A stretch of 64,000 nucleotides of DNA from Bacteroidaceae bacterium (GTDB lineage Bacteria > Bacteroidota > Bacteroidia > Bacteroidales > Bacteroidaceae), in the NCBI GenBank assembly GCA_017481875.1, contig JAFUOP010000038.1, positions 25,716 to 89,715 of the forward strand, read 5' to 3'. A program made the position numbers and the translations under genes. Of the stretch, positions 5,729 to 46,054 are shown one piece after another (position 1 is the stretch's first letter; every line of letters begins with the position of its first letter). The notes under the pieces are model-generated. The model was given only the letters and a program-made list of their open reading frames with translations. It had not been told where the DNA came from and did no database searches.

Positions 5729-5890
5729 AATTTCAGTTTTTAATTAGTTTTATATTCTACTTTAACAAGCGAAAGAGATATTCTGTTTAAACCCTTTCTT
5801 CATTATTTCCAATGCAAAGATTATGCACGATTCTGAAATGAAATTGAAATAAAAAAGAAAACACAAACAATATTCAAATTTTAACATAAA

Positions 5891-5941
5891 TTAACAACGG
5901 GGGGGTAATTATAGACATTTTAAATTTATATTTGCACAAAT
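5891..5941 (+). promoter_or_regulatory. Promoter of the first two-gene secreted unit, with a G7 tract
   Basis: A -7 box TATATTTG (5927-5934) predicts a start near 5941. Exactly 22 bp upstream of the box ends the tract AACAACGGGGGGGTAATT (seven G, 5899-5905). This tract occupies the -33 position where a TTTG would be expected. The block from TTAACAACGGG to TTTGCA is conserved at the second locus (44741-44786), with eight G and the same 22-bp spacing. Confidence 0.6.
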
Positions 5942-5991
5942 ATTAACATTTACAACAGTTTAAGATATTTACTCACATTAATTTAAAGCCT

Positions 5992-6468
5992 ATGAAAAAA
6001 CTCAAATTCTTAATTCTTTTGCTGCTTCTTGCAACATTCAACATTGCTGCAACAGCACAAAACAGCCTGGTTATTTACTTAACCGACGGCAGCACCGCTG
6101 TTTTTCCCCTGGCGGAACTACCCGAGATAACCTTTGAGGGCGAAAACTTCAAAGTAGTAGCAAAGCAGGCAAATATTGAACTACCACGCGCCGAAGTCAA
6201 GGAATTTAAATTCGAAGACCGCGAGAGCACTGCAATAGAAGATGTTACAGAAGAAGGGGACAACGCAACATTCAACGCCGACAACAACTACATAACAATC
6301 GACGGCATTGCCAACGGCACACAAGTAACAATATTCAATATTAAGGGACAAAAAGTTCTTGCAAGCACTGCCACAAACAACAGCTGCTGCATATCACTCG
6401 AAAGCCTGACGGCAGGCCTGTACATTATTAATTATAACAGCACAACCATTAAATTCTTGAAAAAATGA
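5992..6468 (+). CDS. Small secreted protein with T9SS-type C-terminal sorting domain (unit 1, protein A)
   Basis: 158 residues. Signal peptide 1-22; two short copies of a beta module (about 24-50, LVIYLTDGSTAVFPLAELPEI then TFEG; and 53-76, ending VKEFKFED); a linker; then residues 100-158 resembling a type A T9SS sorting domain (VTIFNIKGQKVL ... LTAGLYIINYNSTTIKFLKK). The protein is almost all module plus sorting domain, with no enzymatic passenger. It is closely similar to the 44841-45308 product. It overlaps the next gene by 4 bp (ATGA), so translation is coupled. Assigning the C-terminus to T9SS is by motif resemblance; the secretion machinery is not in the window. Confidence 0.7.
   Translation: MKKLKFLILLLLLATFNIAATAQNSLVIYLTDGSTAVFPLAELPEITFEGENFKVVAKQANIELPRAEVKEFKFEDRESTAIEDVTEEGDNATFNADNNYITIDGIANGTQVTIFNIKGQKVLASTATNNSCCISLESLTAGLYIINYNSTTIKFLKK
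6371..6439 (+). repeat. Upstream copy of a 69-bp direct repeat (3' part of protein A gene)
   Basis: This stretch, coding for the core of the sorting domain, recurs at 8652-8720 with 66 of 69 bases identical by my alignment. The two copies flank the partner gene 6465-8594 in direct orientation, so recombination between them would remove that gene. Confidence 0.8.
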
Positions 6469-8594
6469 GAAAAACTTTACTTGCATTAGCCACCTTGTGT
6501 ATAGCACTTTTCACACAAGCACAAGATGTGAACACAATGTATATCAACTACAAAAGCGGAGAAACCGTTGAAGTGGAAGTTGCAGAGGTTGAAAGTATTA
6601 CATTTACTAAACCTTTTAAAACAAATGATCTTTGGATTTCTCGCATCCATGAGAGTGGTAGATACAACTGGATCACTTCACACGGTGAGAACGTTCACTT
6701 CTGGCATAACCCCATTGGCGTAAACACTCACAGTAGCACAAACGCTGCTTTTGGCGATGCTAAAGATTGTGCTAAAGACAACATCGATGATATCCGCGTT
6801 ATAGACATTCTCTACAACAAAGATAGCGACTTGGACGACTACATAGGCGTATGCTTGCAGGACGGTACATCACACAGCGAGTTCACACAGATGGAGGAGC
6901 ATAACTTAGGTATTGCCTATACAATGGCTGACATCGAGGTTGACATCGTAACTGAGGAGGGTTTGGCCGTTGAGACAGACCAGAACAAGTTTATCAAACT
7001 CAAAGGCAGCGTGGTTACTCCTACAACTTACAACTTCGGCGACTACCACCGTTCATCAATCGGCCGCCGTCCCATTATTATGGCAGAGTTGTACCAAGAG
7101 AAAAATGGCCAAAAGACTACTATCAAGACAGCTTACATCGTTCTTCAGATTGTTACTGACATGACAACCGGTGGCGGTGTGGGAGGAGGCTCCAACACTT
7201 ATGAAACAACTTTCAACGAGTACAATTTCACCACAACAGATTACTTCGGTAAGGAGGTTGACTTCTGCGATGGCGACGTTGTTGAAATCACAGCGGAGCA
7301 GATGAACTATGTTTACACAGGTGAGAAAGTTTCTAAGGAAGAGTTTGCAAGCAACTATCTATTCTATCCTACTTCTACTTCTATAAGAATCAACGGTAAG
7401 ACATACATCACAACCGAGGGTGTAAGCTACTCTGCAAACGTTGGTGCTGAAACAACTTACGGTTTGACATGGGCTCTTGATGCTGATTATATCTGGAACA
7501 ATGCAGGTACAACACCTAAAGCAACAGCTATCTACAGGCACAAGAGCAAAGACCACTACGTAATCATCAATCTCACAACTAAGCAGGCTATTCCTTCTCA
7601 CAAGGCAGATCTCCAGCTCAACAGCGAGAAGATTGAGGAGTATTGGAAGAACGATTTGACTATTGCCGACTTCACCACACGCGTGCCTTATTTTGGAGAG
7701 AACACAAGTGAACAATGCGTTTTTGAGAACGATATTTTAACCCTCTTCAGAGAGAACAAGGATCCCAAAACTCTCTTGGAGAAGAAGATTAACACAAGCA
7801 TCTACAAAGTAAGCTCTGTAACAGGCGTTTCTAATGTTGATGTAGAATATGTTATCACGGGTGCTACTTGCTCAGGCCAGAAGACAAAAGGTACATTCAG
7901 AGTTGTAAATGGCACAATCCTCAACTACCGTGTAAGCGGCACAGATCACTTCATTGCAGAGTTGAGAGGCAATTCAGTATTCTTCAACAACGATCACACT
8001 GACAACGTAATTGCAGAAGAGTTGCTCAACACAAACAACCTCGTTGTAACATTCGACGTTAAGGCAGAGTTTGAGAGCTGCCTCGGTACATATGCCATTC
8101 CTACAGAGGGTGGTGCAGCCTTCGATGTTCACTATGTCCGCCCCATAAATGTAAAAAATAGCACATCGGTATCATTCCAGGACGGTGTTGATTTTGGTGG
8201 TGAAGGCACATTGTTAAAGACTTCTGACGTTATTGCTTTGTTCGACTGGCGTAACCGAGAAATTACAAAAGATAGCTACCTCTTTGGTTATTATGGCATC
8301 AGCCGTGTAACAGTTGATAACAGCAAAATCACATGCAACGTGGAATCTGGTAACAACATCATGCTACCTGTTGGTATAAAGGCAGGTATTGTCGATAACG
8401 GAGCAAAAAATGATGCTAGCTTAGCACCTATACTGGGTAATTTAGCTAACGATGAATGGCTATTCTACTACAATTACAGCGGTACCGTTCTTCAGGAGAA
8501 TATCTCAATCAACTTCCCCGTTATCGTTGAGTACTGGTGGGGTAAGGTTGTTACAGAAACAGTTACTGTAACGGTAAAAAAGGCAAATTACTAA
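6465..8594 (+). CDS. Large secreted protein of unknown function (unit 1, protein B payload)
   Basis: 709 residues. A signal peptide (1-20) is followed by the segment DVNTMYINYKSG...VESITFTKP (to residue 50), which matches the first 50 residues of the protein at 45305 at 33 positions. This N-terminal module is common in Bacteroidota surface proteins. Residues 51-709 match nothing I recognise; a glycine-rich hinge (GGGVGGG) near residue 235 divides a domain of about 180 residues from one of about 465. The end (VTETVTVTVKKANY) is beta-rich and lacks a sorting domain, unlike its small partner. Ile codons are mostly ATC/ATT, unlike the ATA-rich neighbours, suggesting strong expression or foreign origin. 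Function unknown. Confidence 0.75.
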   Translation: MRKTLLALATLCIALFTQAQDVNTMYINYKSGETVEVEVAEVESITFTKPFKTNDLWISRIHESGRYNWITSHGENVHFWHNPIGVNTHSSTNAAFGDAKDCAKDNIDDIRVIDILYNKDSDLDDYIGVCLQDGTSHSEFTQMEEHNLGIAYTMADIEVDIVTEEGLAVETDQNKFIKLKGSVVTPTTYNFGDYHRSSIGRRPIIMAELYQEKNGQKTTIKTAYIVLQIVTDMTTGGGVGGGSNTYETTFNEYNFTTTDYFGKEVDFCDGDVVEITAEQMNYVYTGEKVSKEEFASNYLFYPTSTSIRINGKTYITTEGVSYSANVGAETTYGLTWALDADYIWNNAGTTPKATAIYRHKSKDHYVIINLTTKQAIPSHKADLQLNSEKIEEYWKNDLTIADFTTRVPYFGENTSEQCVFENDILTLFRENKDPKTLLEKKINTSIYKVSSVTGVSNVDVEYVITGATCSGQKTKGTFRVVNGTILNYRVSGTDHFIAELRGNSVFFNNDHTDNVIAEELLNTNNLVVTFDVKAEFESCLGTYAIPTEGGAAFDVHYVRPINVKNSTSVSFQDGVDFGGEGTLLKTSDVIALFDWRNREITKDSYLFGYYGISRVTVDNSKITCNVESGNNIMLPVGIKAGIVDNGAKNDASLAPILGNLANDEWLFYYNYSGTVLQENISINFPVIVEYWWGKVVTETVTVTVKKANY

Positions 8595-8604
8595 CGTATA
8601 AAAT

Positions 8605-8648
8605 GATAGAAAAAAGATTGAGGGCTAGCCCTCAATCTTTTTTCTATC
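8605..8648. terminator. Loopless 44-bp palindromic terminator
   Basis: Perfect palindrome with 22-bp arms centred between 8626 and 8627; the core is GAGGGCTAGCCCTC flanked by AAAAAAGATT and AATCTTTTTT. The T-runs inside the arms allow it to end transcription in both directions. It lies just after the 709-aa gene. Confidence 0.85.
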
Positions 8649-8651
8649 TCC

Positions 8652-8720
8652 CCACAAACAACAGCTGCTGCATATCACTCGAAAGCATGGCAGCAGGCCT
8701 GTACATTATTAATTATAACA
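8652..8720 (+). pseudogene. Orphan fragment of a T9SS-type sorting-domain gene
   Basis: Near copy (66/69) of 6371-6439. In frame it reads TNNSCCISLESMAAGLYIINYN, then diverges to NKDITIELILLF... and stops near 8774, inside the end of the kinase gene on the other strand. It has no start, no signal peptide and no promoter. It looks like the tail of another protein A gene left by recombination or partial duplication. Confidence 0.7.
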
Positions 8721-44683: not shown

Positions 44684-44740
44684 AAATAGTTGCGTTATAA
44701 TAAGGAATAAAACTTATCATTGTGCATATTTAACGTTTTT

Positions 44741-44791
44741 TAACAACGGGGGGGGTGATTGTAAAATCTTTTAATTTACATTTGCATAATT
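44741..44791 (+). promoter_or_regulatory. Promoter of the second two-gene secreted unit, with a G8 tract
   Basis: -7 box TACATTTG (44777-44784), with eight G at 44748-44755 ending 22 bp upstream, as at the first locus (seven G). The shared block reads TTAACAACGGGG..., then TTTTAATTTA and ATTTGCA. In both loci the start codon is preceded by TTAA(A)GCCT. Confidence 0.6.
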
Positions 44792-44840
44792 ACAAGCAAA
44801 ATTCAACTACACAAATTGTTAATTTACATCTATTAAGCCT

Positions 44841-45308
44841 ATGAGAAGAACAAGACTTTTTATCTCCTTGCTGTTTATGCTGCTCGCATTCGGGGCTACA
44901 GCACAAAGCAGCCTGGTTATATACCTTACCGACGGCAGCTCGGCTGTGTTCCCCTTAACGGAACAGCCCAAAATAACCTTTGAGGGTGAATATTTTAAAG
45001 TAGTAGCGGAGCAAGCAACCATTGAAATGCCACGTGCCGATGTAAAGACATTTAAGTTTGAGGAGAGAGATGCTACTGCAATTGACGAGGTTGCAAACGA
45101 AGCTACCTCCATTACCACCAACGGAAATTCGGTTACAATCAATGGCATTGCCGAAGGCTGCGCCGTGCGGGTTTTTAACATCAACGGACAGATGGTGCTA
45201 ACTGCCACTGCAAGCAACGGCAGTTGCTCGCTATCGCTCGAGGAGCTTGCTAACGGGCTCTACATTATTAACTACAACAATACTACCATTAAATTCTTGA
45301 AAAAATGA
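44841..45308 (+). CDS. Small secreted protein with T9SS-type C-terminal sorting domain (unit 2, protein A)
   Basis: 155 residues, a close paralogue of the 5992-6468 product: signal peptide (1-21), the module SLVIYLTDGSSAVFPL...ITFEGEYF with its second half ending VKTFKFEER, a variable linker, and a sorting-domain-like C-terminus (VRVFNINGQMVL ... LANGLYIINYNNTTIKFLKK). The linker (about 79-97) is the main region of difference from unit 1. It overlaps the next gene by 4 bp. It lacks any passenger domain, suggesting an anchor or adaptor role, which is inference. Confidence 0.7.
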   Translation: MRRTRLFISLLFMLLAFGATAQSSLVIYLTDGSSAVFPLTEQPKITFEGEYFKVVAEQATIEMPRADVKTFKFEERDATAIDEVANEATSITTNGNSVTINGIAEGCAVRVFNINGQMVLTATASNGSCSLSLEELANGLYIINYNNTTIKFLKK

Positions 45309-46054
45309 GAAAGTTTTTACTTACCTTAACCACACTGTGCATCGCTCTTTTTGCACAGGCACAAGATGTGAATACTATGTATATATACCGCAACAACGGT
45401 AATATAGAGGAAATTCCTGTTACTGATATCGACAGTATTACATTTACAAAACCGGCAACAAGCAACCCCGATGTTCCCACTGAGCCCGACCAGCCTACAA
45501 TTACCGCAGGCGAGGCTATAGACCTTGGCCTTTCCGTTAAATGGGCAAGCTGCAATGTAGGTGCTACCGAACCCGAGGAGTATGGTGGTTATTACGCCTG
45601 GGGAGAGACTGAGGAGAAAGAGAATTACAGTTGGGAGACCTATAAACACAGCACAAATAGTTATTTTACCCAAGGATACTACAAAACCAAGCTTGACCTC
45701 AAAGATGATGTTGCCTATGTAAAATGGGGTGGCAATTGGCGTATGCCCACTCGTGCCGAGCAAGAAGAATTACGTGCAAAATGTAAATGGGAGTGGAGCT
45801 CCTATAAAGGCGTAGAAGGTTACAAAGTAACCGGGCCCAGTGGCAACTATATCTTCTTGCCTGGCGCAGGTTGCATAGATGGTATGACAAACTCCCATTC
45901 TTTTGCTCTTTCTGGTTGCTATTGGTCGAGCGAACTTAGCTATTACGACAAGGAGCCCAACCTGCTCTACTTTTTCCATAATGATGACGATTATTACATT
46001 AATACTTACGAAGGCTGCCACTGGGGTCTCACAGTGCGCCCTGTGTGTGAGTAA
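45305..46054 (+). CDS. Secreted protein with Fibrobacter-type paralogous domain (unit 2, protein B payload)
   Basis: 249 residues. Signal peptide (1-20), then DVNTMYIYRNNG...IDSITFTKP (to residue 50), aligned without gaps to the start of the 709-aa protein. A short Pro/Glu/Thr linker follows, then from about residue 70 a domain resembling the Fibrobacter succinogenes major paralogous domain (VKWASCNVGATEPEEYGGYY, WRMPTRAEQEEL, CYWSSELSYYD, LTVRPVCE). That domain is common in Bacteroidota surface proteins, and its role is not settled. There is no sorting domain of its own. Confidence 0.78.
   Translation: MRKFLLTLTTLCIALFAQAQDVNTMYIYRNNGNIEEIPVTDIDSITFTKPATSNPDVPTEPDQPTITAGEAIDLGLSVKWASCNVGATEPEEYGGYYAWGETEEKENYSWETYKHSTNSYFTQGYYKTKLDLKDDVAYVKWGGNWRMPTRAEQEELRAKCKWEWSSYKGVEGYKVTGPSGNYIFLPGAGCIDGMTNSHSFALSGCYWSSELSYYDKEPNLLYFFHNDDDYYINTYEGCHWGLTVRPVCE

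Follow-up and report, generated by a model that had tools for sequence, protein, structure and literature searches.

A small sorting-domain protein as a putative surface-export carrier for partners without a sorting domain in Bacteroidales

The 64,000-nucleotide stretch of Bacteroidaceae DNA analysed here as a whole (the window, G000:C28:25716-89715, from genome G000 of 2.0 Mb and 76% completeness) contains two copies of a two-gene unit, in which a small protein with a sorting domain of the type IX secretion system (T9SS), called A, is followed by a secreted protein without such a domain, called B. The A-B pair is real and recurs across the order. Although sorting domains normally belong to the cargo itself, we think it likely that A is a dedicated carrier, or adaptor, for B, which would dock onto A, be exported together with it by the T9SS and be anchored through it. 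The argument is built on the constancy of the pair, on a module that A and B have in common, on a natural fusion of the two modules and on payload families that occur elsewhere behind a lipid anchor.

The A-B gene pair

5992-6468, + strand: gene A1, putative carrier, 158 aa (open reading frame (ORF), Pfam/NCBIfam, model)
start of gene A1, + strand: signal peptide (by eye)
6061-6219, + strand: putative docking module of A1, residues 24-76 (AlphaFold model)
A1 residues 81-88, + strand: disordered linker (AlphaFold model)
6268-6465, + strand: type A C-terminal sorting domain (CTD) of A1, residues 93-158 (PF18962/TIGR04183, model)
6465-8594, + strand: gene B1, partner without CTD, 709 aa (ORF, profile scans)
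6522-6614, + strand: putative half docking module of B1, residues 20-50 (module profile, DNA comparison)
6615-8591, + strand: B1 payload, residues 51-709 (homology to lipoprotein bodies, model)
44841-45308, + strand: gene A2, putative carrier, 155 aa (ORF, Pfam/NCBIfam)
45305-46054, + strand: gene B2, partner without CTD, FISUMP-like payload, 249 aa (ORF, clustering, profile scans)

A preliminary description of this DNA had reported a 4-bp overlap of the two genes and a T9SS-type sorting domain in A. The overlap reads ATGA at A1/B1, where the stop of A sits within the start of B, and is 4 bp at A2/B2 as well; the sorting domain lies above the curated cut-offs of both PF18962 (31.7 bits for A1 and 31.8 bits for A2 vs 27) and TIGR04183 (29.9 and 31.2 bits vs 23). 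In the AlphaFold model of A1 (predicted local distance difference test score, pLDDT, 88) the strands of residues 24-76 form two beta-beta-turn-beta repeats, and residues 93-157 form a seven-strand domain that matches the T9SS CTD sandwich fold. K154 is invariant across 40 A proteins, a lysine stands within the last six residues of 83 out of 84 (the conserved C-terminal lysine of type A cargo), and the lengths of A fall in the narrow range of 150-180 aa (n=84). A fold name for the A module was dropped: Foldseek gave weak Sm/Hfq-like matches only (E about 0.1), and the VIA-align rows for A1 span mainly residues 87-158. Two further units are present in the same genome, one at G000:C1 with a Cthe_2159 partner and one at G000:C31, where an A of 168 aa is followed at -4 by a B of at least 1102 aa; the proteins of G000 over the PF18962 cut-off are three only, namely A1, A2 and the A at G000:C1.

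A search of 61 genomes with A1 as the query listed 66 full-length standalone matches (query start at most 16, end at least 149) in 37 genomes of the genus. A secreted B stands directly behind all 66 of them, 64 times at -4. The outcome that the preliminary description had named as speaking against its proposal, A genes that mostly stand alone, thus did not occur. Each of the best 43 (two of them in the window) is followed by a B, which starts at +3 in one case and at -4 in the other 42; one B is cut by a contig end and one is broken. Behind the remaining 23 a secreted protein comes next, in 22 cases at -4. At L384 the -4 start is a TTG and the likely start an ATG some 20 bases downstream. Five more matches in the genus are partial (frames of 140-174 aa); one is the G000:C31 pair, and those at G031:C8, G010:C23, G001:C23 and G015:C15 were left out of the pair counts.

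The pair extends to other families. An order-wide search of 295 genomes supplied 58 standalone A genes from outside the family, drawn from the best matches listed, and 54 of the 57 that could be evaluated have a partner within 170 bp in which the module was recognised by eye. A B-type gene lies within 160 bp in all but one of the first 41 (the 40 paired loci come from 40 genomes), at -4 in 15 of them; 14 of the next 17 have a module-bearing B (at L400 its ATG lies at about +169; L407 meets a contig end). Twenty long CTD cargo genes from the same search served as controls. Two of these, L198 and L200, do have a B-type gene behind them, and their long, by eye LamG-like passengers end in module and CTD, i.e., they are A proteins with a passenger; 17 others have no B behind. 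The same architecture was seen at L282:1760-4006 and L283:1501-3675, where a LamG-like passenger (by eye) precedes an A-type module and CTD and B follows at -4; these would be carriers with a passenger of their own. When named genomes were scanned with the alignment of A proteins of the Cthe_2159 class, 34 of 37 loci belonged to Bacteroidaceae or Bacteroidales metagenome-assembled genomes, most of which have isolate names that suggest ruminant gut.

Shared modules and exchangeable anchors

Profiles of the A and B modules, built without signal peptides, match each other with 90% probability (E 1.5e-6) and with 84-94% in four genus/outgroup splits, the CTD and payload controls reaching at most 1.1%. 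A hidden Markov model (HMM) of the genus B modules, run against the 88 window ORFs (ATG, at least 100 aa), gives E<1 only for its training members B1 and B2 and for A1 (E 0.0016) and A2 (E 0.056), both of which are outside the training set. B1 carries one repeat of the A type (strands 24-28 and 34-38, at low model confidence), and 33 of the first 50 residues are identical between B1 and B2. These comparisons indicate that the modules of A and B are homologous. Residues 1-51 of PDB entry 6d2w_A, signal peptide included, match the beginning of the A profile (E 2e-5). This crystallised enzyme of 776 residues, named BglC, has no CTD stretch in the match and may represent a B-type protein whose structure is solved.

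The two modules also occur in one chain. L342:1702-3723 (at G036:C56, same genus) encodes a single 674-residue protein consisting of A module, dockerin, B module and Cthe_2159 payload. Its N-terminal part, a signal peptide with the A module, has 24 BLAST matches to A and 0 to B; the dockerin (PF00404) scores 35.5 bits vs a cut-off of 22.9; residues 127-674 share 65% identity with a B over 548 columns; and the B-module part matches A modules by plain BLAST (best E 8e-5). This layout means that A and B modules occur covalently joined, with another attachment domain at the place of the CTD. L338:1222-4515 (at G036:C31) has a similar, weaker layout, with a dockerin of 16.3 bits, below the cut-off, an N-terminal part with 4 matches to A and 0 to B, and a payload that matches B. 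Eleven further G036 loci match the dockerin stretch of the query, and among the matches listed G331 is the only other genome of the genus, with one.

The signal peptides of B are ordinary by eye, and no sorting signal for the outer membrane was found. None of 82 B proteins matches a CTD profile built from A proteins (84 A match it by construction), and neither TIGR04183, TIGR04131 nor the type A or B CTD families match any of the 12 B scanned. The preliminary description, which had noted the missing sorting domain and named a hidden one as evidence against an adaptor, is thus borne out at the level of profiles and families. A sorting-like C-terminal pattern in the B G171_L117 was rejected, since it looks like the end of a FISUMP-type domain and fails the profile. 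A lipobox cysteine is absent from B1 and B2, and the 3 pattern matches among the 82 B all lie within the hydrophobic core, so none is convincing.

What follows the B module varies widely. For B1, said earlier to continue without a recognised family, no Pfam/NCBIfam match appeared at E<=1, no PDB sequence relative of the payload at E<=0.1, and no phage relative was found. Its model is of moderate quality (pLDDT 69, predicted TM score 0.51) and shows a chain of beta-sandwich domains with PDB matches to S-layer, protocadherin and other Ig/cadherin-like rods (TM at most 0.30); with moderate confidence the payload can be called a beta-sandwich chain and nothing finer. B2 has only weak Pfam/NCBIfam matches, below cut-off, and clusters with B proteins matching Lcl_C/FISUMP, which suggests a FISUMP-like payload. 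Since the best E between the B1 and B2 payloads is 0.09, the second unit does carry an unrelated payload, as had been claimed. The 43 genus B fall into seven groups, one of which has B1 as its sole member, and ten B from the other six were scanned against families. The families found were Cthe_2159, CotH, transglutaminase with a sub-threshold LRR_5, SusD-like and Lcl_C (FISUMP in the Lcl_C type is below its NCBIfam cut-off); one of the scanned groups gave no family match. The survey that the preliminary description had proposed, of one kind of A before B proteins with differing remainders, therefore returned unrelated payload families across the groups. By ORF reading, there is no SusC gene in the stretch surrounding two SusD-like B loci. 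The CotH-type B gene L082 of G012 is split into two frames of 214 and 332 aa, by assembly error or as a pseudogene.

The same payloads are found with other heads. The B1 payload (residues 51-709) occurs in 7 of 200 relatives and in 32 of 251 family genomes, its own genome included in both. Its closest relative, at 56% identity in G035 of the same genus, is a DUF4988 lipoprotein that also has a collagen-like stretch. The N-terminus is readable at 21 of 29 related loci (unreadable at 8), and every one of these is a lipoprotein (18 by pattern, 3 by eye); in most, the Cys leads into an acidic stretch such as KDYDDD, which resembles the lipoprotein export signals (LES) in the portion of PMC5080379 that we draw on. 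At B1, a B module stands in place of the lipid head, with A in front of it. For Cthe_2159, 47 genus loci from a longer match list comprise 31 A-B pairs, 14 lipid anchors and the 2 A-B fusions L342 and L338. In the first 30 loci, A precedes at -4 in 29 and the remaining one is the L338 fusion. A further 18, mainly weaker matches, add 14 lipoproteins that lack A, two pairs at -4 and the L342 fusion, and include L338 once more. Of 30 CotH loci, two belong to A-B units (L251 and the broken pair L262) and five encode lipoproteins, recognised by pattern at L244, L245, L259 and L260 and by eye at L256; the remainder are mostly long proteins, nine of them ending much like a short CTD. The GxYIxxGxK-type tails of the CotH loci L261, L263, L266-L270, L272 and L273 look, by eye, like the short CTDs of P. 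intermedia, according to its authors, in the part of PMC11969387 cited here, the only species reported with short and long CTDs.

Proposed carriage, its alternatives and the history of the loci

In the carriage that we propose, A and B would both cross the inner membrane by Sec, and the 4-bp overlap would keep them in step through translational coupling. Once in the periplasm, A would bind B through its N-terminal docking module, which would pair with the homologous module found where mature B begins; the SprA translocon and PorV would then take up the type A CTD, and B would be carried through with A. The PorU sortase probably cuts the linker of A, which would leave the A module on surface polysaccharide, holding B. 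The T9SS components searched for, SprA and PorU, are present in 41/41 and 39/41 genus genomes, respectively, and in G000 at G000:C1 and G000:C3. Because the T9SS is described, in the pages of PMC9251779 relevant here, as exporting folded proteins, carriage of a folded partner is mechanically possible. A carrier is favored because the B1 payload elsewhere forms the body of a lipoprotein, because the Cthe_2159 family uses the pair, the lipid anchor or the fusion, and because one relative joins A module, dockerin, B module and payload in one chain. The adaptor suggested in the preliminary description accordingly gains support at the sequence level, from module homology, the fusion and the lipid-anchored relatives of the B1 payload.

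Several observations weigh against a carrier. The docking mode is not obvious, as B1 and B2 have one repeat vs two in A, and no module is visible in six B (G000:C31, L387, L388, L392, L393, L394). At E<1 the genus-B module profile recognises only 21 among the first 41 outgroup B, the rest having been judged by eye. L130 has no B within 600 bp, the outgroup neighbors at L396 and L409 are secreted proteins with no visible module, and the long cargo L205, in which the match spans the module, has no B behind it. In L338 the presumed B module has no BLAST match to B and one to A. Neither L342 nor L338 has a CTD, judging by the C-terminus. A strict PorU cleavage-like linker motif precedes the CTD in 55/84 A and is absent from 29/84. 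Finally, 0/2000 within-genome partner shuffles reach the observed A-B correlation, which is, however, also expected from co-inheritance alone, a test of this mirror-tree style being confounded.

Of the alternatives, the one that survives best, though we regard it as unlikely, makes A an anchor only: B would exit by some signal of its own and be caught outside by the surface-bound A module. The common modules agree with it, as do the lipoprotein forms of the payload families, which suggest a surface fate; the data give no order of export vs binding. It has to contend with the lack of any type A or B CTD found in B and with payloads so unrelated among groups that no part of B other than the module could hold a hidden signal common to all. 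Less likely again is a secretion chaperone that is released into the medium with B and anchors nothing. Type A cargo can be either released or anchored, as PMC12635249 states in the text considered, and the strict linker motif is missing from many A proteins, as just described; PorU is nevertheless present, and the alternative heads of these payloads are lipid anchors. That A might be a regulator or sensor like P. gingivalis PorA, merely co-transcribed with a periplasmic B, seems very improbable: PorA, a small CTD protein, acts on T9SS expression (PMC7712824, in the passages concerned), but A precedes many differing payloads, its module is fused to that of B in one protein, and the B1 payload is lipid-anchored elsewhere.

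The last alternative concerns the past of these loci, where the following elements were found.

5891-5905, + strand: promoter motif of unit 1, TTAACAACGGGGGGG (motif search)
5927-5934, + strand: -7-like box of unit 1, TATATTTG (pattern)
44740-44755, + strand: promoter motif of unit 2, including eight consecutive G (motif search, DNA comparison)
8608-8645, + strand: likely terminator of unit 1, an inverted repeat ending in a T run (read by eye)
8652-8720, + strand: relic of an A-type 3' end, 69 bp (95.7% identity to 6371-6439)

The unit as such was correctly recognised in the preliminary description, but the position given as its start, 5891, is that of the promoter motif, gene A1 beginning at 5992. 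With up to one mismatch allowed, the 2.0 Mb genome has this motif before A1 and A2 and nowhere else; both promoters have TTAACAAC and then 7 or 8 G, about 21 bases ahead of a TAnnTTTG box, and only one other of the 43 genus A has five G in a row within 200 bases upstream. The number of G may vary and so switch the units. The DNA of unit 1 (5880-6613) and of unit 2 (44729-45453) is 70% identical through promoter, whole A and head of B, after which similarity stops, which implies that a head cassette was joined to different payloads. The relic, which lies beyond the likely B1 terminator, is what a duplication or exchange has left behind here. Such rearrangement would fit A and B being halves of one ordinary cargo (module, payload, CTD) and the pair a relic of its splitting, an idea that we find hardly credible, since the CTD half stands first with a module and a signal peptide of its own, the pair is seen at 40 of the first 41 outgroup loci, and A is of nearly constant length. 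A frameshift fusion across the 4-bp overlap was dropped because the ends of A vary among loci.

A possible export class and its relation to known systems

The units may well, and in our view somewhat more probably than not, represent a general modular export class of Bacteroidales. In this class, a CTD protein with no passenger would serve as a replaceable carrier: partners lacking a CTD would dock onto it by their module and pass the T9SS in folded form instead of being lipid-anchored, and the attachment element placed between the two halves that dock (CTD or dockerin) would be replaceable too. Small sorting-domain proteins that now stand as orphans would in many cases be carriers, which would give a role to such proteins where none is known. 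T9SS substrates are predicted by their CTD, and a secretome predicted in this way only would lack every carrier's partner. A CTD acting in trans would imply a second layer of surface proteins overlooked in Bacteroidales, with CotH kinases, SusD-like and carbohydrate-binding proteins, transglutaminases and possible adhesins. The export of non-covalent complexes by the translocon would become directly testable, and a two-part surface display tag could be of use.

No such adaptor or carrier was found in the literature searched, which included the parts used here of PMC10994853, PMC5445135, PMC10202324, PMC12635249, PMC7712824 and PMC11969387, most subscription journals and bioRxiv being outside the search. 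A shares with T9SS type A cargo (TIGR04183/PF18962) the signal peptide, the CTD and the conserved C-terminal lysine, but it has no passenger beyond a module of about 53 residues, and its presumed cargo B has no CTD. Type B substrates also have a carrier of their own, PorP/SprF, often linked by gene (PMC12635249, PMC12618676 and PMC9143113, as far as the excerpts go); there the cargo bears the CTD and the carrier is an outer-membrane protein, whereas here the carrier would be a small CTD protein and the cargo has no CTD. PorA of P. gingivalis is likewise a small protein of signal peptide, domain and CTD; it is set apart from A by its description in the relevant part of PMC7712824, as a signalling protein of 246 aa with a FimH-like N-domain and no partner mentioned there. 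Carriage of a folded partner by the subunit that has the signal is known from twin-arginine (Tat) hitchhiking and peroxisomal piggyback import (PMC4273604, PMC9251779, in the portions cited), which use other membranes and other machines; that one partner only has the signal holds for A and B at the outer membrane only, with the CTD in A and none found in B. The likeness to surface lipoproteins with LES, as the cited portion of PMC5080379 describes them, lies in the payloads, those of B1 and of the Cthe_2159 type occurring as lipoproteins too; in these lipoproteins the lipid anchor is on the payload itself, unlike in the A-B pair, where attachment would be the task of a separate protein.
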